Source of the DNA: Bacteroidaceae bacterium
GTDB taxonomy: Bacteria; Bacteroidota; Bacteroidia; Bacteroidales; Bacteroidaceae
Assembly: GCA_024398435.1 (NCBI GenBank)
Contig: JAKSJD010000002.1
Location: forward strand, 1 to 64,000
Reading direction: 5' to 3'
DNA length: 64,000 nt
Shown here: positions 308-16,800 of the stretch, one piece after another
Position numbering within the stretch: the first letter of the stretch is position 1
How the letters are laid out: the number at the start of each line of letters is the position of its first letter
Translations under genes and position numbers: made by a program
Notes under the pieces: model-generated
Database searches by the model: none
Told to the model about the DNA's origin: nothing
The model's input: only the letters and a program-made list of their open reading frames with translations

Positions 308-1048
308 TTAACTATATATTATCGTTTTATGATGCCAATTTATATCTGCTGGAGATGAAGTATTGCTACACACAATTGCTATTTCGTTTATTACTTCATC
401 AACTCCGTGATTATTTCGTATCAAAAAAGAAGTTCCTAAACTAAAACAATGGGTGTTAGAAAGTTGTTCTACTTTTATTGCTCCTGCAATTTTTATTTGG
501 TCTTCAAATGATTGACTTTTTGTAGTTAAGAAGAAATACACATCCTGTGTTACATCTGTATTGGCCTGCCATAGGGTATTAATAGAAATTACCACGTTGT
601 TTTCTATATAACTAATGGTTACATTTATGTACATATTGTATAATCCGATACCATCACAAAGTATATGGTCACGTTTTATTACTATAAAAGACGAGAGTAG
701 TTCATTAAAACTTGTATCTGATAATATCAAATTACTTATATCGCTCATATTGTATATATTGTTTATATAATTTGATATGTTGCTGTATTCACTTCCCCAA
801 AGTGATGTATTTACGAAAATAGCGGCATACGGCCCATCTTCAGGTTGATCATCCATGTGCAATACAAATTGATTTTTACCAATATAATGTCCATTGACAA
901 ATCCACCATTCCACATGTTAGATATTAAAAGGTAAATAAATTCTAGCACAGTGTAATTAGTACTAGCCGCTTTCTGCATCTCAGATTTCGACAATACTAG
1001 ACTTCCGTTGTTTAATTCAGATTCTGAATAATTGCTAAGTTCTTGCAT
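308..1048 (-). CDS. Divergent leader-module protein, body unknown
   Basis: A 246-residue protein with no recognised enzymatic domain. Its N-terminal part contains YTVLEFIYLL followed by MWNGGFVNGHYIG (about residues 33-57). This lines up with the ENPYT...W.GGFVEGMGYL module of the four other leader proteins in this island and makes it the most divergent member. It lacks the basic MAKVIKK-like start and the serine-rich linker. The rest is predicted to be beta-rich from its alternating hydrophobic pattern, with cysteines at scattered positions. It starts 2 bases after the stop of the GT14/methyltransferase gene at 1051-2514, so the two are probably cotranscribed from the promoter at 2546-2578. 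Family membership is inferred from motif order, not from a database match. Confidence 0.6.
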   Translation of the reverse strand: MQELSNYSESELNNGSLVLSKSEMQKAASTNYTVLEFIYLLISNMWNGGFVNGHYIGKNQFVLHMDDQPEDGPYAAIFVNTSLWGSEYSNISNYINNIYNMSDISNLILSDTSFNELLSSFIVIKRDHILCDGIGLYNMYINVTISYIENNVVISINTLWQANTDVTQDVYFFLTTKSQSFEDQIKIAGAIKVEQLSNTHCFSLGTSFLIRNNHGVDEVINEIAIVCSNTSSPADINWHHKTIIYS

Positions 1049-1050
1049 AA

Positions 1051-2514
1051 TTAATATGTTTTAAAGGTTTGAGATAAATAATTTTTATTTTCAAAGACGA
1101 AAATCTTTCCATACATTGGTGCGGTAAATGTCATGTACATTGACATTGCTTGGTTAAAGATATAATTATTATTAATAATAATATGCTTCAGTTGTTGCAC
1201 AACATTGTCATATTTTGTATGTTTACAATCTATACTAATTATAATGCATTTTGAAGCAAAGGTTATCAAATTGTTGAGTGCTTGGTCTAATAAATTGCCT
1301 GGTATGTATTCAAGGACATTTAAGCAGGTAACTAACTCATAAGTTTCTATTATATTAAACGGCTGTGTAAGGTCAAAACATTCACAAGGCTTATCGTTAA
1401 CGGCTAATAATAACGAAGAGAGTTTTGGTGTATATTTGTTTGTATCAAAACCTACTGCACGAATTTTGCGACGCCTAAGTGCTGCTACCATAAAACCAGC
1501 GCCACAACCAGCATCTAAAACTGTATGTAAATTTTGCCATTGGCAATATTTATGAATAGCAATTGATATTTGTTCATTATATTTATATTTCAAGAATCCA
1601 TTATATTCCCACCCTCCGTTTGGCATGGAAATAACAGGAGAATCTACAAGCAAATATGTATCTAATGCCTTAATTAATGAATCACAATATGGGATAGCCA
1701 TTTTACGGGCAAACAAACTCTCCGACTCAGCCAACAAATGAAAATGTTCTATACCTAGATTACTTGGTTTGTTATTGTTTTCAAATCTCCATCTAATATA
1801 CCTATAATTTATAGGCATTATTTTATCAAACTGAAGGTTTTCTAAGATAGTTTGAATATATGTTTCTTCAGGGGCGAATGTAAATTCCATTCGTCGATAG
1901 AAAGCTTTATGCTTTTTATGATACTCTATTAACTTTATGAAGCTTTCACGAGTTATACTAAACCATTGTGAACCACAATATAGATATTTGAATTGATCTG
2001 GGATTCTTCTTTTTATACCAACATTTTGTTGCCATTTGATAAATTTTTGCAACCAAGATGACATACGTTGATTCTGTTTTTGAAAATCATAAGGATAATA
2101 GTATTGATATCTTTTATAAGTCTGTTCGCTCCCTCGCATGCTTGGGAACATTTGGCATGCTATATAACTAATATCATTAGAGTTTTCGAAAAAATGGTAC
2201 CAATATTCAAATGGCTTAATAGGATAATCTTGCCCACTATGTAGGTGAATATAATCTACATCATCGCGTTTGTATACTTCTTTCAATAAATACATTTCGC
2301 ATTTAAGCATGCTCATGCCTCCCCAATGAACACGATATTTTCGAGAAACGAAAACAACGTTTGGCTCACTTTTTATCGTATCAAGTAATTCCTTTGAAAT
2401 CTTTGCTCCTTTATCAATATGAATGTATATATAACAATCATGTTGAAAATACTCTATCAAATGAGGCAGATTTTCTAAATCCTTATGAGCTAATATGATT
2501 ATTGCATGCTTCAT
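1051..2514 (-). CDS. GT14-type (core-2/I-branching, xylosyltransferase family) glycosyltransferase fused to SAM methyltransferase
   Basis: A 487-residue two-domain protein. Residues 1 to about 285 form a GT14-type glycosyltransferase: an AIIILAHKD start, SGQDYP at 93-98, GSQWF at 181-185 and PEETY at 215-219 are the conserved positions of core-2/I-branching and protein O-xylosyltransferase enzymes. Residues from about 300 form a class I methyltransferase with motif I VLDAGCGAGF at 332-341. There is no signal peptide, so it should act in the cytoplasm. The paralogue at 10020-11483 has exactly the same length. The gene has its own copy of the island promoter just upstream and is followed after 2 bases by a leader-module gene. 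I infer that it glycosylates either a leader-module protein or a surface glycan and then methylates the sugar; the acceptor is not shown. Confidence 0.85.
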   Translation of the reverse strand: MKHAIIILAHKDLENLPHLIEYFQHDCYIYIHIDKGAKISKELLDTIKSEPNVVFVSRKYRVHWGGMSMLKCEMYLLKEVYKRDDVDYIHLHSGQDYPIKPFEYWYHFFENSNDISYIACQMFPSMRGSEQTYKRYQYYYPYDFQKQNQRMSSWLQKFIKWQQNVGIKRRIPDQFKYLYCGSQWFSITRESFIKLIEYHKKHKAFYRRMEFTFAPEETYIQTILENLQFDKIMPINYRYIRWRFENNNKPSNLGIEHFHLLAESESLFARKMAIPYCDSLIKALDTYLLVDSPVISMPNGGWEYNGFLKYKYNEQISIAIHKYCQWQNLHTVLDAGCGAGFMVAALRRRKIRAVGFDTNKYTPKLSSLLLAVNDKPCECFDLTQPFNIIETYELVTCLNVLEYIPGNLLDQALNNLITFASKCIIISIDCKHTKYDNVVQQLKHIIINNNYIFNQAMSMYMTFTAPMYGKIFVFENKNYLSQTFKTY

Positions 2515-2544
2515 CTTTTTTACTTTTAAAAAATAATTTCGAGC

Positions 2545-2660
2545 GCAAAGATAATAAAACTATTTAAACACCACCAAATTTTTTGAGGAGAAATAGTAAA
2601 CAGAAAGTAAACATTCTAATATAACAACCTGACAATCAATGCATTGTCTTGTGAATGTTT
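2545..2660. repeat. 116-bp promoter-region repeat, copy 1
   Basis: This segment matches 16667-16782 over 116 bases with three mismatches. It contains the complete promoter, the left arm with two AGTAAACA half-sites, and the spacer. Homology stops abruptly inside what would be the right arm of the inverted repeat: after GAATGTTT this copy diverges, whereas the 16667 copy continues into a perfect right arm. This copy therefore has only half of the palindrome. Confidence 0.9.
2546..2578 (-). promoter_or_regulatory. Promoter of the GT14/leader operon (copy 1 of duplicated promoter)
   Basis: On the minus strand the -7 element TATCTTTG is at 2553-2546 and the -33 element TTTG at 2578-2575, separated by 21 bases, which fits the Bacteroidota sigma-ABfr consensus. 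The expected start of transcription is near 2539, giving a leader of about 25 bases to the ATG at 2514. The same promoter sits upstream of the UXS gene at 16668-16700. Confidence 0.8.
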
Positions 2661-2672
2661 TATAGTGAACTG

Positions 2673-3560
2673 TTATTCTCCTGCTTCCTTGAGCATGTCA
2701 TCCACTAAATTCACTATTCTATAGTCATCGCTTCTGAATTGCTGTTTCATTTTATTTCGGATATTTGAAACACCTGGAGTGTCGCGCAACGACCAGATAC
2801 TCATATACAATATTGATTTCGATTCCTTGCCCCTTCTGTTCTGCCAGTAGACCAACTCATCAAACATCCGTGATTCTCTCGAGGTTACCAGATTTGCACG
2901 GGCTCTGTCGATATCAAAAAATCGCTTGTACACATCATACGACTCACCTATCACACCTCGTTCCTTTTGTTCGTTCTTCAATAGGTAGTCATGTGTGGGT
3001 TTATAGGATGTTTGACCTATGGCACACCGCATCAGAGAATCTACCAGATGATATTCCCCGTCATACGATGGCAGAATGCCATAATCATAATCCAGTCCGT
3101 ATATCCTTACTTTTTGCTCGGAACGACAGTTGTAGTCTCGTATTTCCGACAGAAGAAGCATCATGGTCGAAGTTTCTATGTTATATTGATTGCAATACAC
3201 TCCGAGATATTTTTCCACATCATGTGCCGTGGTATGATTGTCGCCGACTACATATCTGTCACATATCATTGCCACGAATGCATTCATGTCGAAGTATAGC
3301 GTTGAATACTGACCTGTATTTACCAGCCATTTGATGAGTACCAACGACCAATAGCTCTCCACATTGTTCTGCTGGGTTGGGTTTACAATACACAACAGGC
3401 GTTCTTGTCTGTCCGAAGCCTTCACAATGTCCTTGGCTTGTTCGAGGAATGGTCTGTCGGCCGAAGCATTATCCATGCTTGGCAATGGTGCAGTCACCTC
3501 TTGTGCATGGAGGTCGAAAGTGAAGCATGCCAATAATAAAACAAAATAACTAATTCTCAT
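2673..3560 (-). CDS. Exported protein, possibly distantly erythromycin-esterase-like
   Basis: 295 residues with a signal peptide (cleavage near LHAQ, residue 20) and no membrane segments after it. The arrangement YWSLVLIKWLV, then STLYFDMNAFV, then VRIYGLDYDYG resembles the framework of EreA-type folds (helix with Glu/Lys, beta strand, N.Y region), but I do not see the conserved catalytic histidine and glutamate pair, so enzymatic activity is doubtful. It is clearly related to the lipoprotein at 6358-7362: both have a YS..YFD/YLD..A segment, then I/V-RGISY or YGLDY, then GDSYD/GESYDVYKR. It starts 6 bases after the CHAP leader gene and may be its partner or immunity protein. Confidence 0.55.
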   Translation of the reverse strand: MRISYFVLLLACFTFDLHAQEVTAPLPSMDNASADRPFLEQAKDIVKASDRQERLLCIVNPTQQNNVESYWSLVLIKWLVNTGQYSTLYFDMNAFVAMICDRYVVGDNHTTAHDVEKYLGVYCNQYNIETSTMMLLLSEIRDYNCRSEQKVRIYGLDYDYGILPSYDGEYHLVDSLMRCAIGQTSYKPTHDYLLKNEQKERGVIGESYDVYKRFFDIDRARANLVTSRESRMFDELVYWQNRRGKESKSILYMSIWSLRDTPGVSNIRNKMKQQFRSDDYRIVNLVDDMLKEAGE

Positions 3561-3566
3561 AAGATA

Positions 3567-4196: not shown

Positions 4197-4250
4197 AAGT
4201 GATAAAATAATTATTAGTAATTTATTTGTTTTGAATTGTTTTTACAATGT

Positions 4251-4367: not shown

Positions 4368-4448
4368 TTATTGTGCTGTTGCATCAAATATACTGAAGAG
4401 CCACATAAGAGTCGGAACCAACTATGAGGAAATCACATTTTGTCAAAG

Positions 4449-5204
4449 CTACGAATATGGTGGATTTTTTATTGGATGATAGAGCATATCGGCCAGTTCC
4501 ACATTGACGGTCAGCTTGAGGTGTGACATTGTCTGCTTATTATAGAACACTTTCTGACGAATGGAGTTTTCTTCTACGACTCCCATGTCTGCCATACTGT
4601 ATTTATGATAATTCACCGCCGATGGTATGACCACCTCTGCATGGCCACGCCATCCATCTGACATGAGTTCGTGCAAGCCAATCAGGGCACGGCGTGATAT
4701 TCTATATATGGGGCAGAAAGCTTTCATACACTGTGAAATTTCAATGTGATAATTGGAGGTATACAGACTGCTCCACCACGGCCAGTGTATTTCATCATGA
4801 TAATGTGAAATATATGAAGCTACCAAGTCTGTTTTTTTATCATGATAATAATCAAATAAAGATGTCCAAGATCCGTTAAAGATTACGTCATCTTCTACAA
4901 CCCAATAGAAGTCATAGGTTGGACAAATACGAAAATAATCAAGCAGAGGAAAATGAGCATTACCTGGTATCAGACTATTTCCCATAGCAAAATATCCAAG
5001 ATTTGTCAAGATACTATCAGTGAATACATGTACTTTCGTTATGCTTTGCAATTTTTTCAATATGTCTGCAGAATCATATTCTGGTTTACGATGAAACAGA
5101 ACATGGCAGTCGGTTGTCTCCGAAACCGCGTCCATCAAATGCGCTAACTTACTGCATAAGGCACTGTCTGCTCCGTATGTTAATAATAATACTACCTGCC
5201 GCAT
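4449..5204 (-). CDS. Glycosyltransferase, DUF3405-like
   Basis: 251 residues, cytoplasmic. The sequence FYWVVEDDVIFNGSW (EDD at 104-106) is an acidic nucleotide-sugar binding motif of the GT-A type, and the overall layout (N-terminal VVLLLTYG strand, LDYFRICP, WVVEDDV, then IYRISRRAL) resembles the DUF3405 group of bacterial glycosyltransferases. Donor and acceptor are unknown. Its neighbours suggest galactofuranose or xylose chemistry: glf ends 10 bases upstream, and the pair is probably cotranscribed. After its stop come about 80 bases of non-coding DNA and then the epimerase remnant. Family assignment is moderate, but a glycosyltransferase role is well supported by context. Confidence 0.7.
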   Translation of the reverse strand: MRQVVLLLTYGADSALCSKLAHLMDAVSETTDCHVLFHRKPEYDSADILKKLQSITKVHVFTDSILTNLGYFAMGNSLIPGNAHFPLLDYFRICPTYDFYWVVEDDVIFNGSWTSLFDYYHDKKTDLVASYISHYHDEIHWPWWSSLYTSNYHIEISQCMKAFCPIYRISRRALIGLHELMSDGWRGHAEVVIPSAVNYHKYSMADMGVVEENSIRQKVFYNKQTMSHLKLTVNVELADMLYHPIKNPPYS

Positions 5205-5214
5205 ATCAAAAAGA

Positions 5215-6342
5215 TTATTTGTTATTTATTTTCTCACTTAAATAGAATTTAGCCATTGCACTTGCTATCACTTCATCCATATTAACATAACTATATGTAG
5301 CAAGTCTTCCTCCAAATATTATATTTGTTTCTTGATTTGCTAAAGTCAGGTATCTCTCATATAGTTGGGAATTACGTATGTCGTTGATGGGATAAAATGG
5401 TTCACAGTCATTGCCCAAAAGAGGGTATTCTCGAGTTATGACTGTCAGAGGAGAGTTTAATGATGTGAAATTGTTGATATCAAAATGCTTATGCTCGACT
5501 ATTCTAGTGTATGGAACATCATGTGTTGTATAATTGATAATTGCATTGCCTTGATAATTACCCGTATGTAGCAATTCATGCTCAAAATGCAGGCTTCGAT
5601 ACTCTAAATGCCCCATACGATAATCATAGAATTCATCAATGGGCCCTGTATACACAATTGTGCTTGCTTGGGAATCCCAAAAACTCTTGTTTTCAAGATA
5701 ATCACATCCCGTTCTGCATTCTATATCCTTTAGCAGTCCATTGACCAATCTGTCATACCCACCTTCAGGGATTCCTTGGTACAGGTCTTTGAAATAGTTG
5801 TTGTTATAGGTCAACCGAACAGGCAATCTTTTGATAATGAATGCAGGAAGTTCCGTACACTTTCTGCCCCATTGTTTCTCCGTGTATTCCTTAATGAGCA
5901 ATTCATATATGTCTCGTCCGACAAGTTTCAAGGCTTGTTCTTCCAAATTGTGTGGTTCAATATTCCTATATTCCGCACACTCTGTTTCCAGTTTATGTTT
6001 TGCTTCTTCTGGTGTTGTGACTCCCCATATCTGATAGAAGGTATTCATGTTAAAAGGTAGATTGAATAGTTTTCCTTTAGCATTGGCGATGGTGCTAAGC
6101 GTAAACCGATTCATGTTTACGATAGATGTAACTAGATTCCATACATCTTGGTTAGAAGTATGAAAAATATGTGGACCATACCAATGTACACATATACCTT
6201 CCATCTCTTTGCAATAAACATTGCCGCCTAAATGTGGCCTTCGATCAATGACCAAACAACGTTTTCCACGCTGCTTTGCCAAATATGCAAATGTAGAACC
6301 GAAAAGGCCCGAGCCCACAATTAAATAGTCATAAGGTTTCAT
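5215..6342 (-). CDS. glf: UDP-galactopyranose mutase
   Basis: 375 residues, the usual family length. This flavoenzyme converts UDP-galactopyranose to UDP-galactofuranose in the cytoplasm. The N-terminal FAD-binding motif YLIVGSGLFGS is at residues 6-16 with the GGNVY segment at 39-43. The family signatures HWYGPHIFHTSN and YTEKQWGRKC are present, as is the C-terminal FGGRLATYSYVNMDEVI segment that closes the FAD site. It lies between the lipoprotein gene at 6358 (15-base gap) and a glycosyltransferase gene, so galactofuranose is probably a building block of the glycan made by this island. Identification is firm. Confidence 0.95.
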   Translation of the reverse strand: MKPYDYLIVGSGLFGSTFAYLAKQRGKRCLVIDRRPHLGGNVYCKEMEGICVHWYGPHIFHTSNQDVWNLVTSIVNMNRFTLSTIANAKGKLFNLPFNMNTFYQIWGVTTPEEAKHKLETECAEYRNIEPHNLEEQALKLVGRDIYELLIKEYTEKQWGRKCTELPAFIIKRLPVRLTYNNNYFKDLYQGIPEGGYDRLVNGLLKDIECRTGCDYLENKSFWDSQASTIVYTGPIDEFYDYRMGHLEYRSLHFEHELLHTGNYQGNAIINYTTHDVPYTRIVEHKHFDINNFTSLNSPLTVITREYPLLGNDCEPFYPINDIRNSQLYERYLTLANQETNIIFGGRLATYSYVNMDEVIASAMAKFYLSEKINNK

Positions 6343-6357
6343 GAATTATGTTTATTG

Positions 6358-7362
6358 TTACTGGGGAGTTCCACCACCTGTTGTACTCTTCCATTGCTCA
6401 TACTCCAGATTTTGTATTTGAGAATGGTCGGGATCGTCCAATATATTATACACTACATACTGATTCGTAGAGAATTCATTTTCAAACAATAGTCTGAACG
6501 AAGTGACTCCGGCTTCCTTGCGCATCTGAATAGGACCTAAGTAAACAATGGCTTTTTCGTCTGCGTCCTGCTTTGAATAGCTATACATGAAATCTTCAAA
6601 CTTGTGATAATCATAATCACTCATTTTATCATAAGTTTTGTTTTCGTTGGCCAACCTTCGCTCTACTATTCGCTTGTAAATGTCATAGCTATCTCCAATA
6701 TCCTTCTTCAGCTGTGCCTCATTCTTCTCCAGATATTCATTGAATTCAACATAATCAGCATGATGTGTTCGACGATCATGCTCGAACTGAATAGTAAGAA
6801 ACCTGTCAACCAATTCCTTTTGCTTGCTGTATTTATCACCTATTGGAAAAAGCAACTCGGTAAATTCATAACTTATTCCTCTTATGGATATTTTCTTCGA
6901 CAATTTGGTATTTATCCATTTCAAACACTCCATAAACCTAAAAATTTTATCACGTTCCATATACCATCTCTTGTCGTACTCAGGGAACTGATGAAGGTCG
7001 TCTAACGAAACATTGTTTTCACCTTTGATATAATCATCATAGACCATGCCCAACAATGCAGGGACATCAAGATAGATTACGGAGTAATTGCCCGACAGAG
7101 CCATGTTCTCTAAAAGCCTGACACAACGAACCTGTTCCAAATCATAATACATCGTAGGATTTGCCATCAGCACGACCTTTAAGTCTTCACTCGGATTCAT
7201 GAGTTCGTCCCTTGAACATTTCGGTGTAGAATCTAGGTATGCATGAACTATACACTCAGATTTTGGACGTATTGATTCCGACTCATTCGGTTTGTCTCCA
7301 TTTTGACTGCATGCAAGAAACAACAGGCACACACATGACCACAAGCTTAATATTCTATTCAT
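6358..7362 (-). CDS. Lipoprotein, paralogue of the 2673-3560 protein
   Basis: 334 residues. The signal peptide ends in a lipobox (LFLACSQ, lipidated Cys18), so the protein is membrane anchored. The body is charged and mainly helical. It shares ordered landmarks with the exported protein at 2673-3560: YSVIYLDVPALLGMVYDDYI, ISIRGISYEF, then GDSYDIYKR. A distant erythromycin-esterase-type fold is possible, but the catalytic residues are not evident. The C-terminus is low-complexity (TTGGGTPQ). It sits between the 367-residue exported protein and glf. Its function is not known; an immunity or envelope-partner role is only a guess from the repeated pairing of such genes with leader genes. Confidence 0.55.
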   Translation of the reverse strand: MNRILSLWSCVCLLFLACSQNGDKPNESESIRPKSECIVHAYLDSTPKCSRDELMNPSEDLKVVLMANPTMYYDLEQVRCVRLLENMALSGNYSVIYLDVPALLGMVYDDYIKGENNVSLDDLHQFPEYDKRWYMERDKIFRFMECLKWINTKLSKKISIRGISYEFTELLFPIGDKYSKQKELVDRFLTIQFEHDRRTHHADYVEFNEYLEKNEAQLKKDIGDSYDIYKRIVERRLANENKTYDKMSDYDYHKFEDFMYSYSKQDADEKAIVYLGPIQMRKEAGVTSFRLLFENEFSTNQYVVYNILDDPDHSQIQNLEYEQWKSTTGGGTPQ

Positions 7363-7452
7363 AGTTCTATTGATTTTAATTAATAATTTCCTGTTCTAAG
7401 TGTTGATGAATTTACTACCCATGCCGTTTCTTGCTTTCATATTCTATCTGTT

Positions 7453-8556
7453 TTATTGAATGGCAATTGTTCCATCTTGATTAATTGTATAACAATGAAT
7501 TAGCACATGTTGATGATTTGTATTTGGGATTATATTGTCAGTTGCAATAGTTTTATTTTTTTGAACAACGTTTAACGTATGGTTGCTTGTAGGTGGCAAG
7601 TATTCCAAGAATAAAGTGTCATTTTCTTTTCCTACGGAACAAGAATCAATCAATTGGCCTTTCGTGTTGTAAGTCAGAATATACGGCATTGCATAAGGTT
7701 CCTCATTGCGAGGCGTGTCACACACTTTGGTTGCAAACATGATGTATGTCTTGGCATATTTGGTGTATTTCCCAGCAATCCAATATGTCCCATCTTGGCC
7801 TATATCAGACGAATCAATAAATTTCCATGATTCGTAATAACCAATTTCGTTTTTCTCATTATTTTGTTTAAAACAATCTTTAGAGAAAACGGAATCGTCG
7901 GAATATGAAAAGTGAGACACGAAATCATTGAATTTGATTCTCTTGGCTGGTGCATATTGTGCTGCAACGATCATATTTTGGGGACTTCCCTTTTGGGTAC
8001 ATAGTATTTTCCCATTGCTGTCTATGTCATAATGCGTTGTCATGGCTACATATTTCAATGGCCAATACTTTGTGTAGTTGGCATAATCTCTGAACTTTGC
8101 ATATTTTGCTACAATACGCTTATTTTTAATCTCTGCTTTTATTTGGGTAGAATCCGTAATTCCATCTGCCCCCACAACCTTTGCATCAATCAATTGCTTA
8201 TCCTTGCTGCATGTAGCCACAACGAGCAGACATGTAATATCTTCCATTGCGATGTTACGGTTTTCTTCGTAATAATAGCAACGGGCAAAGCACACATCAT
8301 ACTTCTCTCCAACAACAATTGCACCAGGCTTCCACCCCATAGGCTTTATTAAGCAATAATCATCCCCCAACATATTTGTAGTCAAGCCTAATTCGAGGGA
8401 AGGAGTTGTAAACAAAATGTTGTCAAACAAAGACTCCTTATCTGCATTGCCATTCCATTCCTGGAATTCTTCAGTATGGATTGTCGTGGCCAAGCAATAT
8501 AAGGGCATTACCATGGTAATTGCACACAATATATTAAGTTTTAATGTCATCTTCAT
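7453..8556 (-). CDS. Exported protein of unknown function
   Basis: 367 residues with an N-terminal signal peptide (hydrophobic core LNILCAITMVMPLYCLA). I do not recognise a domain. The mature part is beta-rich, with several cysteines (CFARCYYYEE, CLLVVATC) that could form disulfides, and ends in a repeated strand pattern (HVLIHCYTINQDGTIAIQ). It starts 19 bases after the stop of the C39-type leader gene, repeating the arrangement of a leader gene followed at once by an exported protein. A partner or immunity function is possible, but nothing in the sequence proves it. Confidence 0.5.
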   Translation of the reverse strand: MKMTLKLNILCAITMVMPLYCLATTIHTEEFQEWNGNADKESLFDNILFTTPSLELGLTTNMLGDDYCLIKPMGWKPGAIVVGEKYDVCFARCYYYEENRNIAMEDITCLLVVATCSKDKQLIDAKVVGADGITDSTQIKAEIKNKRIVAKYAKFRDYANYTKYWPLKYVAMTTHYDIDSNGKILCTQKGSPQNMIVAAQYAPAKRIKFNDFVSHFSYSDDSVFSKDCFKQNNEKNEIGYYESWKFIDSSDIGQDGTYWIAGKYTKYAKTYIMFATKVCDTPRNEEPYAMPYILTYNTKGQLIDSCSVGKENDTLFLEYLPPTSNHTLNVVQKNKTIATDNIIPNTNHQHVLIHCYTINQDGTIAIQ

Positions 8557-9316: not shown

Positions 9317-10012
9317 CTAATCATAATATCCTAATCTCTGTTTGAAACTCTTCACTACGACAGCATCCAAATGATTAACTATGAAACAGCTGATAAGTCG
9401 CTCTGCCAAGAATGAAACGGCTCGTTGCTGATAATCTACATTGTCGTGTGGGAAATCTCTTTCTGCCTTCATGCGATAGTTCTGGGGGTCCTTATTGAGT
9501 CCATGTCTATGATCAAACTCAAAAAGAACAGGAAAAAGAAAGTTGCAGAGACGGTCAAAATCCTCCCACTGCATTATAAAACAACAGAAAGGTATGAATA
9601 TTCCATCATTGAGCATATAAGCCGAATAAGCATTTCCTTTGCCATAGAAATCATCAAGTATGTCCACGATGTCATCATAGTCGTGGTAATTATGAGCATC
9701 CTTGTAATGCCTGTATACTGATGCCATGCGCTGCACATGCAGGACTTGACATTCCCCTTTGTCAAGAGCAATAAAATGCATGAATCGTCGCCTATAATGG
9801 CAAAATCCAACATACTGACTCTTTACTTTGTTTTTCCATACCCAATACATCGTCGTCATCTCAGAATAGAATGCATTCAGGTGGTTGATGTTCTCTCCAT
9901 CCACATTGGAAGCATTTCCCTTAAACAGACGGTACACATCATCCTCCTTCAGTCCGTATTCCTCTATCTGACGGTCGTCATGATAAGTTATCCAAATCTG
10001 TAGTTCTTGCAT
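9317..10012 (-). CDS. DUF4422-type glycosyltransferase
   Basis: 231 residues, soluble. The family signature is clear: ITYHDDR near the start, LNAFYSEMTTMYWVWKN at 45-61, YVGFCHYRRRF at 67-77, and the C-terminal segment DYQQRAVSFLAERL. DUF4422 proteins occur in capsule and O-antigen loci and are regarded as glycosyltransferases. It begins 7 bases after the stop of the second GT14/methyltransferase fusion, so both should be cotranscribed and probably act in sequence on the same acceptor. Donor sugar unknown. Confidence 0.85.
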   Translation of the reverse strand: MQELQIWITYHDDRQIEEYGLKEDDVYRLFKGNASNVDGENINHLNAFYSEMTTMYWVWKNKVKSQYVGFCHYRRRFMHFIALDKGECQVLHVQRMASVYRHYKDAHNYHDYDDIVDILDDFYGKGNAYSAYMLNDGIFIPFCCFIMQWEDFDRLCNFLFPVLFEFDHRHGLNKDPQNYRMKAERDFPHDNVDYQQRAVSFLAERLISCFIVNHLDAVVVKSFKQRLGYYD

Positions 10013-10019
10013 ATTGCGT

Positions 10020-11483
10020 TCAATTATTTTTTTTTACGAAAATAACATATTTTTTATTTCCCATATTCAGTTCCTTCAACTGGCGGTTAAGAAGAGGATC
10101 AGGAAAAAAATTCACCTCTGACATCATAGATACCATATCCTTCTCGATATGACAAGTAATAGGCAATGCAGAAATATGCTTACCTTCATACCAATTCAAC
10201 AGAACATATCTGTCCGACAACTTCGCCAATTTCTTCACCGCTTTTGTGATTTGTTCTGCTGGTATATAGGGTAGTACATCCTTGCAAAGCACTAGTCCGA
10301 ACGGACTCTCCGTCTCCAACTCATCATCCAGCAAGTCGGCTTGCACACATAACTCCTGATCTTTATCTATTAGACGGGCCGACAGTTCCTCCGTATATGG
10401 ATTGGCGTCAAATCCCACAGCAGCAATATGCTGTTCCCTTAGTATTGCCACATCCATGCCACAACCACACCCTACATCCAACACCGAATCTACACCTGTC
10501 AGTTGACACAGCTTGACAACAGCTGTTATATAGTCCCTGGAATATCCATATGCTTTGTAGCCATCATATTCCCATCCACCGTTCGGCATCGCTTTCAAAG
10601 GCTGCTTGTCATAAACGAAATACTTATCCAACACTTCTATTATCTCATTGCTGACAGGCATTTCCATTTTCCTAGCAAAAACACATGGCCTTTCCACCAA
10701 GTATCTCAGATGATGGACATCCAGATTGGCAGGATTGTTGCCGTTTTCATACTTCATGCGGATGAAACGAAAATTTGTGAACAGTATATCCTTTCCTTTC
10801 TTTAGATTCACCAATACCGTTGCCGTGTACATCTCCTCCGGAGCAAACGTCATCCACATACGCCAATACAGCATGGGATGGCGGCGAGTGTAATCGACAA
10901 TCATCTGAGTAGACTTGCGCGTGATTGAAAACCATTGGGAGCAACCATACAGATGATCAAATTGTTTTGGCAACGAGCGCTTAATGTTGTACTTGCGTTG
11001 AAAGTGAAGAATTTGATACATCTTGCTCCTTGCCTTGTATCGAGTGGAAAAGCAATCGTAAGGGTAATAGTACTGCAAACGCTGATACGTGTTCCGTTCC
11101 CAGTTTATGTGAGGCAAATGAATATATTGCAGACAGTCTTTCTCTTTATATTGTTCGAAGAACATAAGAAATTCGTCCAACGACATCGTTGGGTAGTCTT
11201 GACCACTGATAAGATGCACGTATTCCGCATCACATCGTTTCAGCACCTCACGCATCATGAACATCTGGCAACGCAGCATACTGAATCCACCCCAGTTCAC
11301 ATCGAACTTCTGATATACCCTAATCACTTGAGGGAACGCCTCTAAACGTTCCCTCTCTTCCTTGCTCATCTTAAACTTCTTGTCTAAGTGGATAAACACA
11401 TAACAGTCATGGATGAAGTACTCCACTAAATGGCAGAGTTGCGCCATGTTCTTATGTGCCATGATTATGATTGAATGCTGCAT
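10020..11483 (-). CDS. Second GT14-type glycosyltransferase/methyltransferase fusion
   Basis: 487 residues when begun at the ATG at 11483 (MQHSIIIMAHKN). This start is preferred over an upstream in-frame ATG at 11534 because it gives exactly the length and N-terminus of the paralogue at 1051-2514. SGQDYP is at 93-98, and QWFSITR and APEEMY follow in the expected order. The methyltransferase half has motif I VLDVGCGCGM near 332. The two copies are clearly homologous along the full length but strongly diverged, suggesting related acceptors or sugars. GT14 includes the protein O-xylosyltransferases, which matters because a UDP-xylose synthase gene lies in the same island. The 263 bases upstream hold no gene and no obvious promoter. 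Confidence 0.85.
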   Translation of the reverse strand: MQHSIIIMAHKNMAQLCHLVEYFIHDCYVFIHLDKKFKMSKEERERLEAFPQVIRVYQKFDVNWGGFSMLRCQMFMMREVLKRCDAEYVHLISGQDYPTMSLDEFLMFFEQYKEKDCLQYIHLPHINWERNTYQRLQYYYPYDCFSTRYKARSKMYQILHFQRKYNIKRSLPKQFDHLYGCSQWFSITRKSTQMIVDYTRRHPMLYWRMWMTFAPEEMYTATVLVNLKKGKDILFTNFRFIRMKYENGNNPANLDVHHLRYLVERPCVFARKMEMPVSNEIIEVLDKYFVYDKQPLKAMPNGGWEYDGYKAYGYSRDYITAVVKLCQLTGVDSVLDVGCGCGMDVAILREQHIAAVGFDANPYTEELSARLIDKDQELCVQADLLDDELETESPFGLVLCKDVLPYIPAEQITKAVKKLAKLSDRYVLLNWYEGKHISALPITCHIEKDMVSMMSEVNFFPDPLLNRQLKELNMGNKKYVIFVKKNN

Positions 11484-11688
11484 ATATATCTCGTTTTCTT
11501 CAATTGATGATACAATGACTATAACATATTTCAAGAACTTTTGTTAACACTTGTTATTTGTTTTCTAAGATTTTGTTAAGGAATAAACATGGATTTTTAC
11601 CTATTTATGAGTTTTAACGCAAGCAGATGTGAAGCAAATGTCCAATGAAACCATCAAACATATTACAAAAACATCATACATCGCTCTC

Positions 11689-11775
11689 CCTACCATAATA
11701 TCAAGATTGAAATAGTACCATATAACAGCCTATATTATTGCTGAGGTTATTGTTCAACATCCAAAGCAAGACGCA
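11689..11775. repeat. 87-bp repeat (SUMF-like gene end plus 3' flank), copy 1
   Basis: Matches 13340-13426 with a single mismatch. It spans the last codons of the SUMF-like gene and about 58 bases downstream of its stop. Because the rest of the two SUMF-like genes has diverged much further, the two ends look recently copied or exchanged. Confidence 0.9.
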
Positions 11776-12565
11776 ATCCCGTTCCAAATGTTATCATTGC
11801 GGGATCTTTATATCTCCATAATGTTTGATTTATCTCCTGCATTACGGCACTATTATAGAACGATCCCCCACATATAGGTATGGATTTCGCATTATTAGGT
11901 TCATGATGAATATTAGAAGAATCGGATTCATAATAATCATGTCCATCACTGCATATTTCATCTACATTGCCACTCATATCATAAATACCCAGCTCGTTAG
12001 GCTTTTTTGCTGAAACTTCATGTATTCGACAATCGCTATTACCAAGATACCACCCGACTTCGTCTATATTGTTACTACCTGAGTATATATAACCTTTACT
12101 TTTGTTACCTCCCTTAGCTGCAAATTTCCATTCCGCTTCTGTTGGCTTACGAAAATGCAAACCAGTGAGTTGGTTTAATTTTGAAATAAAAACATCGAAT
12201 GTATTTTGAGTACAATCATACATGGGATAATTCGGTGCTAATATATGGTAAAACCTTCCCGTGATATTACCTTCAATGGACAGATTGTAACTAATAGCTT
12301 TAATGCAATAATCTTTATATTCTTCTGGCATTACAGCAGCCCACAATGCTTGTGTAACTTCTGTTTCTCCAATCATAAAAGAGTCGATTTTCGTATTTTT
12401 CTTTTGCCTATTGTTTTTGATGTTACTATCCTCAATAATATCTGTCTCTCCTTCAACAAAAATCATATTGAATTCGAATCCGCCAACTCTAATTTGTTTA
12501 TTCGATTGGGCATATATGTTGATTATCGGTAACATTACGATTAGCATTATAATTCTTTTTTTCAT
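11747..12565 (-). CDS. Exported SUMF/FGE-sulfatase-fold protein (copy 2)
   Basis: 272 residues from the ATG at 12565 (MKKRIIMLIVML, signal peptide to INIYAQ). The body has the formylglycine-generating-enzyme/C-type-lectin-like fold: FMIGETEVTQALW, FRKPTEAEWKFAAKGG, GIYDMSGNVDEICSDG, CGGSFYNS and GTGLRLALD. The pair of active-site cysteines of true formylglycine-generating enzymes near the C-terminus is absent (NQTLWRYKDPAM is found there), so it is probably a non-catalytic binding or structural member, as are many Bacteroidota homologues. It begins 7 bases after leader gene A. The last 10 codons and downstream flank are nearly identical to those of the SUMF-like gene at 13398. Confidence 0.75.
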   Translation of the reverse strand: MKKRIIMLIVMLPIINIYAQSNKQIRVGGFEFNMIFVEGETDIIEDSNIKNNRQKKNTKIDSFMIGETEVTQALWAAVMPEEYKDYCIKAISYNLSIEGNITGRFYHILAPNYPMYDCTQNTFDVFISKLNQLTGLHFRKPTEAEWKFAAKGGNKSKGYIYSGSNNIDEVGWYLGNSDCRIHEVSAKKPNELGIYDMSGNVDEICSDGHDYYESDSSNIHHEPNNAKSIPICGGSFYNSAVMQEINQTLWRYKDPAMITFGTGLRLALDVEQ

Positions 12566-12572
12566 ACAAAAA

Positions 12573-13226
12573 TTATTCATTAATTTCAAAATTTGGATTA
12601 TATATATCATCTGTTTTATAACCTCTATGATGAACCAACATATTGTTACCATTAATATTCTCATACGTAGACCACGTATAATTGAATGTCAAATTGATAC
12701 AATAATGATTTTTTCTAATTTTTTTCCAATTTGTATTACATGGGCCCTCCCATTGGGGGTCAATTATATTGTTAAGATTAATTGTTGGGCTCGCATTTAA
12801 TAAATCTTTTCTTACATCTATACTTTCAATATTAATAGTACTACGTATCCAATTAGGTATGTTATTACTAAAATTACCTGTGTATCCAGGATTCCATCTA
12901 TAATGCACAGTTGCAACTATGCCATCAGTTAATATTATATCTTGGGATGAGATAGTGCCGTGAGAGCCATCTAAATAAATACCAACATAAAAATCCATAT
13001 CATCAGTATCCCCAATTACGATTTCGCTACTACTTGATCCAACTCCAATTGTTGACGGAGGCAAATACCCCATGCCTTCAACAAATCCACCTGGCCACGT
13101 TCCATCTCCAAATGTGGTCATTTCTTCTTGAGTGTAAGGATTTTCTGGTGTTCCTTTCAGTACTGCTTCGTTAACCTCTGTGCTAGATTCAGCACTAAGA
13201 TTCATTTTCTTAATTACTTTTGCCAT
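12573..13226 (-). CDS. Leader-module protein A, body unknown
   Basis: 217 residues from the ATG at 13226 (MAKVIKKMNL); the three extra upstream codons would need a TTG start. The leader module is complete: GTPENPYTQEEM at 25-36, then GTWPGGFVEGMGYLPP at 42-57, followed by GVGSSSS at 61-67. Residues 1-67 are identical to those of leader protein B at 15025-15636, and the DNA is identical too, but the bodies after SSSS share nothing. The body here is beta-rich (IVATVHYRWNPGYTG, CINLTFNYTW) with two cysteines (CNTNW and YCIN) and unknown function. Copied epimerase-tail DNA lies just upstream, and a SUMF-like gene follows after 7 bases. Confidence 0.75.
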   Translation of the reverse strand: MAKVIKKMNLSAESSTEVNEAVLKGTPENPYTQEEMTTFGDGTWPGGFVEGMGYLPPSTIGVGSSSSEIVIGDTDDMDFYVGIYLDGSHGTISSQDIILTDGIVATVHYRWNPGYTGNFSNNIPNWIRSTINIESIDVRKDLLNASPTINLNNIIDPQWEGPCNTNWKKIRKNHYCINLTFNYTWSTYENINGNNMLVHHRGYKTDDIYNPNFEINE

Positions 13227-13341
13227 AATACTCAATTTTAAAAAGTTAATAATATGAATTACGCCGATATTGGCTTATGTATTTCTTTAAAGTATTCAAT
13301 AGTACTCTTTAATCCTTCTTCTAAACCAATTTTTGGCTTCC
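13027..13341. repeat. 315-bp leader cassette repeat, copy 1
   Basis: Matches 15437-15751 over 315 bases with three mismatches, all in the epimerase-tail part. It contains codons 1-67 of leader protein A, the 25-base spacer, and the last 28 or so codons of a UXS-type gene without the rest of that gene. Its right end abuts, with a 2-base overlap, the 87-bp SUMF-end repeat at 13340-13426, so the locus is a mosaic of two copied blocks. Confidence 0.95.
13251..13340 (-). pseudogene. Truncated copy of the UXS gene 3' end
   Basis: On the minus strand this encodes the last codons of UXS ([11 protein letters not shown] region to the stop) and is almost identical to 15661-15750. No upstream coding part is present. 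It sits between the SUMF-like gene at 13398 and leader gene A, so it cannot be expressed as an enzyme. It is best read as a recombination footprint carried along with the leader cassette. Confidence 0.9.
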
Positions 13342-13426
13342 TACCATAATATCAAGATTGAAATAGTACCATATAACAGCCTATATTATTGCTGAGGTTA
13401 TTGTTCAGCATCCAAAGCAAGACGCA
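13340..13426. repeat. 87-bp repeat (SUMF-like gene end plus 3' flank), copy 2
   Basis: Second copy of the segment at 11689-11775, one mismatch. It covers the end of the SUMF-like gene at 13398-14240 and its downstream flank, and then runs directly into the copied epimerase tail. Confidence 0.9.
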
Positions 13427-14240
13427 TACCAATATACATAAATGTTGTATTTGGAGTATCGGATATATGTAGTCTAAGAAAAGAATTTCTACAAACTTCA
13501 TCATTATGCATATAGCTTCCACCCCGCGCAACTTTTTCTTCTCCACTTATCGGACCTTGAGGATTATTTATTGGTGATTCTTTATAATAATTCTCATCAT
13601 ACCAATCATTGCACAATTCAAAGACGTTGCCGCTCATATCATAAAGACCTAGTTCGTTGGATTTTTTTGTGGCAACTTCATGAACCAGGCGGCCACTATT
13701 ATTTTTATACCATGCAATCTCATCAATATTATTGCTACCAGAATATATATATCCAATGCTTTTGTTCCCTCCTCTTGCTGCAAATTCCCATTCAGCTTCT
13801 GTAGGGAATCGAAAATGCATTCCTGAAAGCGCATTAAGTTTATCTATAAATTGTTTGTATTTACCCCAACTATAGAAATACATAGGATAATTATCTCCAA
13901 ATTGATCTTGAACTACAATGCCAATAGAATCAATACTATTCATTGCATCTCTTTCTTTTGTATATTTTGCATAATCTTCAGGCATTATTGCTTTAAACAA
14001 TCCCTGTGTCACCTCAGTTTCGCCAATGAAATAACTATGTAATGTTACCTCGTGTGAAGGCTTTGAGTTTTCAAATGCTTCATCTTGCTCTTCTGAAGTA
14101 CCCCCCATATTATATTTTCCACCTTCTACCAAAATCATATTGAATTCAATACCATTGATATTAAATGCCTTTTTGGCTTGAGGGTTAGCTTTTATCGATA
14201 ATAGGGATATAACGATTAATATCATACATTTTTTATTCAT
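13398..14240 (-). CDS. Exported SUMF/FGE-sulfatase-fold protein (copy 1)
   Basis: 280 residues with a signal peptide (MILIVISLLSI, cleavage near ANPQA). Ordered family motifs: FNMILVEGGKYNMGG, YFIGETEVTQGLF, FRFPTEAEWEFAARGG, GLYDMSGNVFELCNDW, VARGGSY and IGMRLALD. It keeps the NMGG start and WDEW-like acidic segment better than copy 2. One cysteine lies near the C-terminus (DEVCRNSF) but not the pair needed for formylglycine formation, so a catalytic role is unlikely. Such proteins often bind ligands or act in the envelope. Directly upstream lies another short copy of an epimerase tail (14276-14354). Confidence 0.8.
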   Translation of the reverse strand: MNKKCMILIVISLLSIKANPQAKKAFNINGIEFNMILVEGGKYNMGGTSEEQDEAFENSKPSHEVTLHSYFIGETEVTQGLFKAIMPEDYAKYTKERDAMNSIDSIGIVVQDQFGDNYPMYFYSWGKYKQFIDKLNALSGMHFRFPTEAEWEFAARGGNKSIGYIYSGSNNIDEIAWYKNNSGRLVHEVATKKSNELGLYDMSGNVFELCNDWYDENYYKESPINNPQGPISGEEKVARGGSYMHNDEVCRNSFLRLHISDTPNTTFMYIGMRLALDAEQ

Positions 14241-14275
14241 ACTAAATTGTTTTGTGTAAAACTTGGATCATTGTG

Positions 14276-14354
14276 TTCTATAAAGTATTCAATAGTACTC
14301 TTTAATCCTTCTTCTAAACTGATTTTTGGCTTCCAACCATTAAGCATAGTTGTA
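14276..14354 (-). pseudogene. Short copy of the UXS gene 3' end
   Basis: 79 bases matching 15693-15771 of the intact UXS gene with few mismatches, and lacking both the stop-proximal codons and the rest of the gene. It lies between the lipoprotein gene at 14411 and the SUMF-like gene start at 14240. Together with 13251-13340 and the diverged 4251-4367 remnant it is one of three orphan epimerase tails in the island. Confidence 0.85.
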
Positions 14355-14410
14355 TGGCTTATTCATTACAAAAAGATGTATATTAGATACATTGAAAACT
14401 ATAGAATTAT

Positions 14411-15016
14411 TCAAGGAACTCTATATTTATTAATTAATCTACGATTAACTTTATCATATATAAATGTTTTAGATATATATCCGTTATTTTCTCCGTTATT
14501 TATCTCATATTTAAATTCAAAGGTTAGTGTTCCATTGCTATTAATAAGATTACAATTAATGGATTCATATATTTTGCTTTTGTTTACCGAACAAAAAATA
14601 CGGTCTTTTGTGTTCAGTACATCAAGTACATCATCGTATTTATCAGATTTTGTGATGTAATCGTTCCATTTATTTCCTATAACTGGAGTTAGTGCTTTTA
14701 CAAAAGCAAAGGCACTGATATCATCTTCCACAATAAATTGGTTTGTGTTAAATTTATACAACCAACTAGTTTTATCAAGTTGTTGAATAAATTCTATGTC
14801 TTTATAAACAGAATCACAAATGGATTGAAATGATTCAGTTTTTGCCATATGCTTTGCTTTAATTATATTTGTATATGCATTTTCAAAATCTCCCATGTTT
14901 AATGCAACTTGGGAGTTTATGAGTTCATTGTACCCATCATTTTTGCAGCATCCATATAATATATAAACAATACAAATTAATAGCATTGTTGTTAAATAAT
15001 TATTTTGTTTTTCCAT
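14411..15016 (-). CDS. Small lipoprotein of unknown function
   Basis: 201 residues. The signal peptide ends in a lipobox (ILYGC, Cys23), giving a lipid-anchored protein. The mature part starts with a helical, tetratricopeptide-like pair (SQVALNMGDFENAYTNIIKA), followed by a beta-rich C-terminal half (TLTFEFKYEINN). I do not recognise the family. It begins 8 bases after leader gene B, matching the pairing of each leader gene with a following exported protein. An immunity or anchoring role for protein B is inferred only from position. Confidence 0.6.
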   Translation of the reverse strand: MEKQNNYLTTMLLICIVYILYGCCKNDGYNELINSQVALNMGDFENAYTNIIKAKHMAKTESFQSICDSVYKDIEFIQQLDKTSWLYKFNTNQFIVEDDISAFAFVKALTPVIGNKWNDYITKSDKYDDVLDVLNTKDRIFCSVNKSKIYESINCNLINSNGTLTFEFKYEINNGENNGYISKTFIYDKVNRRLINKYRVP

Positions 15017-15024
15017 AATATATA

Positions 15025-15636
15025 TTACGCGATAGGAAATAATTGAATTGTATTAGTACCACCTATAAAACCGATAAAGGAATCTCCTCCATTATAACAT
15101 ATTGTTAGCAATATCGAAACATTTCCTGAAGCGGGTAAATTAATTGTACAAGACCCTAATGGTTTATGTCCTGTTGCGTATACCAAAGATTGAGGTATTA
15201 CCAAAATTGCTTCATGAATTATATTATTATTTCGCATAATTTTAACGTAACCTGTATACTTAAGGGTGTCTGTAAATGGAGGAACAATTTCTGCAGAAAC
15301 AAATACGCTATTACCAGTAAATTTAATAGTTGTATTGAGCCCATAACTTCCTAAAAGGCCAAAACCTTCGGCAAATATGTAGTTTAATTGTAAGTTGGAT
15401 TTAGTAAATGTGCCCTGAGGATATACGTATTGATTACTACTACTTGATCCAACTCCAATTGTTGACGGAGGCAAATACCCCATGCCTTCAACAAATCCAC
15501 CTGGCCACGTTCCATCTCCAAATGTGGTCATTTCTTCTTGAGTGTAAGGATTTTCTGGTGTTCCTTTCAGTACTGCTTCGTTAACCTCTGTGCTAGATTC
15601 AGCACTAAGATTCATTTTCTTAATTACTTTTGCCAT
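15025..15636 (-). CDS. Leader-module protein B, body unknown
   Basis: 203 residues from the ATG at 15636. Residues 1-67, including ENPYTQEEM, TWPGGFVEGMGY and the GVGSSSS linker, are identical to leader protein A. The body (from NQYVYPQG) is different, hydrophobic and beta-rich (TTIKFTGNSVFVSAEIV, SGNVSILLTICYNGG), and ends in IQLFPIA. It could be a small beta-sandwich. It begins 32 bases after the UXS stop, so it is probably expressed from the UXS promoter, and it is followed after 8 bases by a lipoprotein gene. Function unknown. Confidence 0.75.
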   Translation of the reverse strand: MAKVIKKMNLSAESSTEVNEAVLKGTPENPYTQEEMTTFGDGTWPGGFVEGMGYLPPSTIGVGSSSSNQYVYPQGTFTKSNLQLNYIFAEGFGLLGSYGLNTTIKFTGNSVFVSAEIVPPFTDTLKYTGYVKIMRNNNIIHEAILVIPQSLVYATGHKPLGSCTINLPASGNVSILLTICYNGGDSFIGFIGGTNTIQLFPIA

Positions 15637-15751
15637 AATACTCAATTTTAAAAAGTTAATAATATGAATTACGCCGATATTGGCTTATGTATTTCTTTAA
15701 AGTATTCAATTGTACCCTTTAATCCTTCTTCTAAACCGATTTTTGGCTTCC
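15437..15751. repeat. 315-bp leader cassette repeat, copy 2 (at the intact UXS gene)
   Basis: Counterpart of 13027-13341. Here the epimerase tail is joined to the full UXS gene, so this is likely the donor or ancestral context. The block begins exactly in the serine codons of the leader linker, which marks the switch point between a constant N-terminus and a variable body. Confidence 0.95.
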
Positions 15752-16631
15752 AACCATTAAGCATAGTTGTAGCTAAAGAAATATCAGGTCGTCGACATTT
15801 AGGGTCGTCAATAGGCATGGGATGAGTTTCTAATTTAGATGGTGAATTAGTGAGTTGCAATATCATTTCAGCTAATTCTAGAATTGAATATTCATCGGGG
15901 TTGCCTATGTTTACCGGGCCTGTGAAATCATCGGATGTCTGCATCATCTTAGATATGCCTGACAGCAAATCATCAATATACTGAAAACTGCGGGTTTGGC
16001 GGCCATCTCCGTATATAGTAATATCGTCGCCTCTCAATGCTTGAACGATAAAATTTGATATAACCCTACCATCATCCACTCTCATGTTTGGGCCATAGGT
16101 GTTGAAAATCCTAATAATCTTTACCTTTGTTCCAAATTGCCTATGGTAGTCCATACATAAACTTTCTGCGCATCTCTTTCCTTCGTCATAACATGCTCGT
16201 ATTCCAATTGGATTTACATTACCCCAATAGTTTTCTGATTGAGGATGTATTTCGGCATCTCCATATACTTCACTTGTAGAAGCTTGTAAAAAAGTACAAT
16301 GATTATTTTCTGCTAGATTTAACAGGTTCATTGTTCCGATTACACTTGTCTTGATGGTTTGTATAGGTTGAGCTTGATAATCTTTGGGTGAAGCAGGACA
16401 AGCTAGATTATATATTTCATTAAGATGTCCATCATATTTAAATGGATATATGATATCGTGTTTAATAAATGTGTATCCTGGATACTTCAACAATGATTCT
16501 ATATTATTTAATTGACCAGTGTGTAGGTTGTCTATACAAATGACTTTATGACCGTCATCCAATAAACGACGGCAAAGGTGTGAACCAACAAACCCAGCTC
16601 CTCCGGCAACTAATATTTCCTTTTGCTTCAT
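15669..16631 (-). CDS. uxs: UDP-glucuronate decarboxylase (UDP-xylose synthase)
   Basis: 320 residues. NAD-dependent short-chain epimerase-fold enzyme that decarboxylates UDP-glucuronate to UDP-xylose in the cytoplasm. Seen: Rossmann motif GGAGFVG at 10-16, NLACPASP at 75-82, the catalytic ASTSEVYG segment near 118-124, and [17 protein letters not shown] at 137-153 with Tyr148 and Lys152; this last signature is typical of the decarboxylases as opposed to other epimerases. The start at 16631 places the Rossmann motif as in the family and leaves a 30-base leader; an in-frame ATG at 16652 would leave only 9. It heads the island operon and should supply UDP-xylose to a transferase such as the GT14 proteins. 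Confidence 0.9.
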
Positions 16632-16666
16632 AAACAAACACGTTCTTTCCATTTAGATAAAACGTT

Positions 16667-16782
16667 GCAAAGATAATAAAACTATTTAAACACCACCAAA
16701 TTTTTTGAGGAGAAAAAGTAAACAGAAAGTAAACATTCTAATATAACAACCTTACAATCAATGTATTGTCTTGTGAATGTTT
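16667..16782. repeat. 116-bp promoter-region repeat, copy 2
   Basis: Partner of 2545-2660 (three mismatches in 116 bases). In this copy the palindrome next to the promoter is complete. Confidence 0.9.
16668..16700 (-). promoter_or_regulatory. Promoter of the UXS-led operon (copy 2 of duplicated promoter)
   Basis: Minus-strand TATCTTTG at 16675-16668 and TTTG at 16700-16697 with a 21-base spacer. Expected transcription start near 16661. Identical in layout to the promoter at 2546-2578. Immediately upstream lies the inverted repeat at 16713-16800. Confidence 0.85.
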
Positions 16783-16800
16783 ACTTTCTGTTTACTTTTT
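16713..16800. promoter_or_regulatory. Perfect 26-bp inverted repeat with paired AGTAAACA half-sites upstream of the promoter
   Basis: The arms 16713-16738 and 16775-16800 are exact reverse complements, separated by a 36-base spacer. Each arm holds two AGTAAACA motifs spaced 11 bases apart, so there are four half-sites in mirror arrangement. The block ends about 12 bases upstream of the -33 element, a natural place for a regulator to bind. Alternatives are a recombinase target or a long hairpin ending transcription from upstream. Confidence 0.7.

Follow-up and report, generated by a model that had tools for sequence, protein, structure and literature searches.

A recurrent modular gene system of Bacteroidales places tagged, effector-like proteins beside glycosyltransferases

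Results

A short N-terminal module is joined to unrelated bodies

The first 64 kb of a contig (C12:1-64000; the window) in the draft genome of a Bacteroidaceae bacterium (2.3 Mb, 77.6% complete) carry a gene cluster in which five proteins with unrelated bodies share one short N-terminal module and lie among genes for sugar enzymes. This cluster belongs to a real and recurrent modular system that combines effector-like bodies and their cognate partners with a portable tag and is strongly associated with glycosyltransferases. With moderate confidence, we read the cluster as an array of modular interbacterial (antibacterial) effectors that are probably glycosylated, and whose modification, export and toxicity are predicted from comparative evidence. 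Because the window starts at the contig end, the cluster is truncated at base 1.

The module is a 35-residue tag of the pattern PYTxxE...WxGG[YF]V.... Naming genes by their first coordinate, the proteins at 3567, 8576, 12573 and 15025 match a profile of three rows, for which they were themselves the source, with E-values of 2.2e-35 to 2.3e-30. The module of 308 scored weakly with three rows (E 0.125), better with ten rows (2.7e-5) and clearly with 36 rows (1.7e-11), among which 308 itself was included. E12, W22, G25 and V27 are invariant in the alignment of 36 module copies. In a profile search of the whole source genome, the module was restricted to this cluster, with five copies. The profile matches bear out the earlier note on this DNA, which had described five − strand genes (308-15645) with one N-terminal module and unrelated bodies. 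Additions to that note are the secreted-looking proteins between the module genes, the two FGE-type proteins, the 321-bp repeat, the truncation at the contig end and the body-partner coupling described below. All open reading frames (ORFs) of the cluster are on the − strand at the positions given there, as follows.

308..1048, − strand: module protein with an unassigned body; module at about 875-970 (36-row profile); any downstream partner is off the contig
1051..2514, − strand: GT14 (PF02485; xylosyltransferase-like)/methyltransferase fusion
2673..3560, − strand: secreted-looking partner of 3567, likely immunity; related to an erythromycin-esterase-family protein of locus L081
3567..4196, − strand: module (4023-4127) and CHAP/NlpC-type amidase body (profile, Pfam match below cut-off, homologue)
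4449..5204, − strand: DUF3405-like putative glycosyltransferase (via a homologue in L061)
5215..6342, − strand: Glf, UDP-galactopyranose mutase (Pfam GLF, E 3.7e-74)
6358..7362, − strand: secreted-looking paralogue of the 2673 partner (E 5e-23)
7453..8556, − strand: secreted-looking partner of 8576, likely immunity; same family behind the same body in L067
8576..9271, − strand: module (9116-9217) and C39-like cysteine protease body (profile; PDB 9jdd)
9317..10012, − strand: DUF4422 putative glycosyltransferase (Pfam, E 1.6e-27)
10020..11534, − strand: GT14/methyltransferase fusion, ATG start at 11483 (Pfam, XT1 comparison)
11747..12664, − strand: FGE-sulfatase-family protein behind 12573 (Pfam); the listed start overlaps 12573, and the true start is probably further downstream
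12573..13235, − strand: module (13056-13157) and unassigned body, ATG start at 13226 (profile)
13027..13347, − strand: 321-bp repeat (upstream sequence and module), 98.8% identical to 15437-15757
13398..14240, − strand: FGE-sulfatase-family secreted-looking protein (Pfam)
14411..15016, − strand: secreted-looking partner of 15025, likely immunity (body-partner clustering)
15025..15645, − strand: module (15466-15567) and unassigned body, ATG start at 15636 (profile)
15437..15757, − strand: second copy of the 321-bp module repeat (sequence identity)
15669..16652, − strand: UXS, UDP-glucuronate decarboxylase (UDP-xylose synthase); match to human UXS1, E 2.4e-107

The module profile matched ten loci in named assemblies, including Tannerella and Paludibacter, one of which (L017, Chloroflexi) is not a module by sequence; given these relatives in named assemblies, the module is not a chance pattern. 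It was found in 3/17 genomes of the same genus (E 0.01) and in 26/399 genomes of the family (E 1e-4), while the source genome was the sole carrier among 345 in an even sample of the phylum. Plasmid and phage collections gave no match with one module protein queried against each.

In the window, a short lysine-rich stretch precedes the module, and a form linked to DUF6734 begins almost directly with it. In relatives (L011, L012, L013, L015, L065, L077, L079 and others), a double-glycine (GG)-type leader ends right before the module, so that after C39 cleavage the module would form the mature N terminus. Since it lies after the GG site, the module is not the C39 leader. The 60 residues that follow the module form a linker enriched in Ser, Gly and Asp (0.144, 0.149 and 0.079 vs 0.088, 0.099 and 0.058 in the bodies; 32 proteins). 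Ser-Gly repeats were considered as xylosylation sites and rejected: they occur mainly in DUF6734-type loci (L071, L072, L076, L082, L083), in stretches without a GT14 match, and the dipeptide is not enriched over composition in the linkers.

Bodies are coupled to specific downstream partners

Two of the window bodies are assigned by homology, and their role as toxic enzymes is predicted. The CHAP body of 3567 scores below the Pfam cut-off (24.4 vs 26 bits) and its relative L081:9840 above it; the C39-like body of 8576 resembles solved C39-like proteins (PDB 9jdd, E 3.3e-13). Tox-PL-C39 is a named polymorphic-toxin domain (PMC3482391) and Cpe1 is a papain-like protease toxin (PMC12136450).

A same-strand gene for a non-enzyme follows 43/49 module genes, and a crude run test found a hydrophobic N terminus in 40/43 of these partners vs 6/49 module proteins. 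We clustered body families and partner families independently and took same-body pairs from different loci, including the body and partner of a chimeric ORF in L063; here and in the transferase counts below, some loci share one genome (e.g. L058/L059 and L063/L082/L083) and are not independent species. The partner family was common to 39/45 same-body pairs (10,000 permutations: mean 4.3, maximum 23, none as high) and, with the largest family left out, to 11/17 (permutation mean 1.6, maximum 7). The six discordant pairs are L058:701 with window 12573, L058:6265 with L066:372, L066:5962 with L062:913 and with L058:3831, and L084 with L082 and with L083. This coupling likely represents an effector/immunity signature, in which the partners would have a protective role.

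Body-partner pairs span locus types, which were assigned by hand (L061 with L079, L072 with L073, and L071 with the chimeric ORF of L063). Moreover, L081, where a GG leader and a C39 exporter are present, has a counterpart of the window pair 3567/2673, and the C39-like body of the window is paired with the 7453 family also in L067; L060 holds both families. The type A partners in L011, L013 and L081 belong to the erythromycin-esterase family (PF05139; 4/4 by Pfam), and by similarity such secreted proteins also stand behind GG-leader module proteins in L015, L055, L065 and L077. These partners possibly confer enzymatic immunity.

The module is tied to glycosyltransferases

A proven or putative glycosyltransferase lies near the module in 31/36 loci vs 0/20 control 20-kb stretches of module-bearing genomes, the controls (12 genomes) having been placed by hand. 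The 36 loci exclude L070 (a 50-aa frame), L009, L010 and L014 (same contigs as L056, L057 and L055, respectively, judged by their equal lengths) and L017 (a Chloroflexi enzyme without WxGG), and include L080, in which the module match was not recovered as an ORF. The five loci without a glycosyltransferase are L008, L057, L016 (a 5-kb contig), L068 (a decayed module) and L074 (module at the contig end); a module widespread apart from such genes, which the earlier note had named as evidence against its proposal, is not what the relatives display. GT14 of any type is present in 20/26 module genomes vs 99/373 others (p 3.8e-7; 119/399 in the family as a whole). Loci that have a GG leader and loci that lack one both show the association, and the transferase families vary between locus types.

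Pfam, NCBIfam, PDB and homologue searches support the enzymes that had been recognised around the module genes, i.e. two GT14/methyltransferase fusions, DUF4422 and DUF3405-like transferases, Glf and UXS. The 4449 protein itself has no Pfam match; its longer L061 homologue reaches DUF3405 at 22 vs 25 bits, below the cut-off. One relative, L077, combines GG-leader module proteins, a GT14-methyltransferase, UXS and a C39 exporter.

DUF6734 proteins adjoin module proteins in L069, L071, L072, L076, L082, L083 and L084, several of them with Ser-Gly repeats. For DUF6734, a model of moderate quality (predicted local distance difference test score 73.6; the other four models 53-56) predicts a GT-A fold, and a DGD motif is invariant. 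A winged helix resembling a recognition element of ribosomally synthesised and post-translationally modified peptides (RiPPs) at the DUF6734 end had no Pfam support, with a query fragment that was approximate at its first residues.

The GT14 enzymes resemble peptide O-xylosyltransferase

By sequence and fold, the fusions belong to GT14. For the GT14 half, the E-value is 6.7e-27 against human peptide O-xylosyltransferase XT1 and 5.4e-10 against C2GnT. The equivalents of XT1 E529 (the catalytic Glu), R598 and K599 (an Arg-Lys pair) and W392 (the hexose-excluding Trp) are retained in 24/24 sequences, and that of D494 in 0/24. XT1-like chemistry is likely in the window's subtype, and xylose transfer to protein serine is predicted.

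Among the matches listed, we chose by eye 20 GT14 stretches without a module match (frames of ~420-550 aa), which comprise 16 GT14-methyltransferase fusions and four genes for GT14 alone. L086, which has an exporter, was removed from the fusions because its gene lies ~10 kb from the L065 module protein and is not module-free. A C39 exporter was in the same stretch for 10/15 of the remaining fusions vs 0/4 GT14-only genes; the fusions without one are L090, L095, L097 (which has a GG-leader protein), L098 and L101. The exporters beside module-free fusions argue that the GT14-methyltransferase is an enzyme of secreted peptide or protein loci, not only of the module.

In L087 (5995-10807), L089, L091 and L093, GT14-methyltransferases have C39 exporters and small GG-leader peptides rich in Cys, Asn and Gly as neighbours, and radical SAM genes accompany such stretches (checked by Pfam in L087 and L091). 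L091 holds a GT14-methyltransferase, exporter, radical SAM gene, Glf and UXS in one locus. Such module-free loci apparently make up a class of their own that resembles glycosylated RiPPs.

Tags are duplicated between genes

A 321-bp tract is 98.8% identical between the genes at 12573 and 15025; it runs from the upstream sequence through the module, beyond which the two bodies are unrelated. Shorter tag-duplication tracts of this kind occur in L013, L058, L066 and L067. A constant N-terminal part joined by recombination to unrelated C-terminal bodies, one of the features by which polymorphic toxins are recognised, is thus present.

The window holds further repeats. An 88-bp imperfect inverted repeat (16713-16800) lies upstream of UXS, and a 116-bp stretch (16667-16782) recurs at 97% upstream of the GT14-methyltransferase at 1051 (2545-2660); 11686-11775 pairs with 13337-13426 and 14276-14354 with 15693-15771, at 95-98% identity. 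The 95-98% repeats are perhaps shared promoters or recombination tracts.

An apparent GT14-module fusion in L063 (8275-10500) was rejected as a functional link and is more likely a product of recombination or an assembly chimera; it was not counted as fusion evidence because the join falls at a motif common to the methyltransferase (DANPYTE) and the module. In L060 (11684-12478), a LanC-like start, recognised by eye, is joined to a linker and body and looks chimeric, and in L068 (9409-10080) a decayed module is joined to a signal-peptide-like stretch. These ORFs in L063, L060 and L068 suggest rapid recombination or draft assembly errors.

Export differs between module genomes

A C39 exporter (E 1e-10) was found in 16/26 module genomes vs 111/373 others (p 0.0017). 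The source genome, at 77.6% completeness and with its contig ending inside the cluster, gave no match, and neither did nine further module genomes, of which one has a completeness rating of 100%. The window's module proteins likewise showed no GG leader at their N termini; L011, L013 and L077 are among the relatives that have one. In the control stretches, 4/20 matched the exporter query (PCAT) at E 1e-8 to the whole ABC exporter; these are probably other ABC transporters, and this column is not specific for C39.

The type VI secretion system (T6SS) was rejected as the route: its component TssC was not found in the source genome at 77.6% completeness, was found in 2/26 module genomes vs 30/373 others (p 1.0), and was thus missing from 24/26. 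An extracellular contractile injection system (eCIS)-type sheath was also rejected, with a contractile sheath in 0/10 module genomes lacking a C39 match, the source genome included.

Bfe1-family T6SS effectors and LysM-like proteins start with a module-like EEF...G...GFVxGxGYAF stretch (L105:1426-2421, L106:1480-2565, L107:1495-2511, L108/L109:814-1752). The Bfe1-family stretch aligned with the module at an hhalign probability of 87% and a pairwise E of 4e-6, and three of the five matches lie ~9-11 kb from TssC. This likeness hints weakly that the tag may be used across delivery systems.

The earlier note had proposed a tag that brings diverse proteins to a shared modification and export route. 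Of this proposal, one module on diverse bodies, the strong transferase tie and an XT1-like active site with UXS encoded beside it are supported, and sugars on the proteins themselves are a prediction. A shared export route is not supported, with GG leaders and C39 exporters in some relatives and no C39 match in the source genome or nine others.

Discussion

The cluster can be understood as follows. Each effector would begin with a short N-terminal tag, in many cases continue with a linker rich in Ser, Gly and Asp, and end in a body that can be swapped (an amidase, a cysteine protease or one without assignment); the gene behind it would usually encode a secreted cognate partner, most likely for immunity. 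The tag would tie the effectors to the adjoining sugar enzymes: UXS would supply UDP-xylose, the XT1-like GT14-methyltransferase fusions would attach xylose, or a sugar akin to it, to serines and methylate this sugar, and the DUF4422 and DUF3405-like enzymes together with galactofuranose made by Glf may extend it. New effectors would arise as tag DNA is copied onto new bodies. Of the readings considered, protein glycosylation, which remains a prediction, needs the fewest assumptions.

Another possibility, which we consider unlikely, is that the product of the transferases is a glycan of the surface or capsule, and that the effectors hitch-hike in the island or bind the glycan without being glycosylated. 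Glf, UXS, DUF4422 and DUF3405-like enzymes are characteristic of loci for surface glycans, many genomes of the family have GT14 (119/399), and transferase families differ across locus types. However, no Pfam flippase, polymerase or initiating phosphotransferase was found in the 17 cluster ORFs scanned, in a cluster cut by the contig end; GT14-methyltransferase fusions often adjoin C39 exporters and GG-leader peptides; and the association persists whether or not loci have GG leaders. The module proteins could also be surface or matrix glycoproteins, forming a proteoglycan-like coat, with the partners as anchors or processing enzymes. The linker composition, the XT1-like enzyme with UXS, the unassigned bodies at 12573 and 15025 and the FGE-family partners, a family with a lectin-like fold, would suit such a coat; nevertheless, effectors fit better with bodies of the amidase and C39-like protease kinds, with partners that are matched to the body family and with the GG-leader/C39 loci of relatives, and we regard a coat as rather improbable.

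It is very improbable that the module is a loading tag of a T6SS or another contractile system and that the proteins are T6SS effectors. The module-like start of Bfe1-family effectors, and the TssC near some of them, speak for such a role, whereas the distribution of TssC, the 10 module genomes with no C39 match, none of which showed a phage-type sheath, and the C39 exporters beside module proteins in other loci speak against it. In total, these observations leave glycosylated interbacterial effectors as the reading that we prefer. A more specific proposal, which we make tentatively, is that Bacteroidales perform protein O-xylosylation as in the initiation of animal proteoglycans, with an XT1-like GT14/sugar methyltransferase acting on effector serines. 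A shared tag would direct it; several protein glycosyltransferases of unrelated families would recognise this tag, which would pass between effectors without a leader, C39-exported effectors and T6SS-delivered effectors.

The literature search, with subscription papers mostly outside its coverage, returned no description of this combination, no paper naming DUF6734 and no description of bacterial GT14 xylosylation. Polymorphic toxin systems (PMC3482391) have exchangeable toxin bodies including Tox-PL-C39, adjacent immunity genes and a constant front recombined with new bodies, which the array resembles in its exchangeable bodies, its putative immunity genes and its duplicated tag; unlike in those systems, the proteins here are small, with a 35-residue tag and a glycosyltransferase tie, no Rhs/CDI-like large carrier was noticed, and no T6SS was found in the source genome. 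The Bacteroidales RiPP clusters of PMC10352776, with PCAT, LanC-like proteins without Zn ligands and carbohydrate-active enzymes, resemble the type A relatives in their GG leaders, C39 exporter (PCAT), divergent LanC-like proteins and, in some, glycosyltransferases. However, the main text of that paper contains neither GT14 nor erythromycin esterase, the products here are enzyme-sized with cognate partners, a GG leader is lacking in the window form, and a C39 exporter was not found in its genome.

With human XT1 and UXS1, as described in PMC5992326, the bacterial enzymes share the GT-A fold, the E529, R598-K599 and W392 equivalents and the supply of UDP-xylose; by contrast, the bacterial fusion carries a methyltransferase, gave no Xylo_C match in Pfam scans, has D494 replaced and would act on a predicted acceptor. 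The Bfe1-family T6SS effectors of Bacteroides (NCBIfam NF053698) have the module-like N-terminal stretch and are T6SS-linked, whereas window 8576 scores 14.2 of the 315 bits required for NF053698.

Among glycosylated bacteriocins, glycocins are small peptides with a GG leader, a C39 exporter, a dedicated GT2-type glycosyltransferase and immunity; the system here differs in its enzyme-sized bodies and its GT14-methyltransferase.

If the proposed glycosylated effectors are real, Bacteroidales would have a class of glycosylated protein effectors and, in bacterial form, a counterpart to the initiating enzyme of proteoglycan chains. The portable tag would mark such effectors in genomes, giving a direct route to new antibacterial proteins and their immunity partners, and the system would offer a test case for why a weapon carries sugars, be it for uptake, stability or self-protection.

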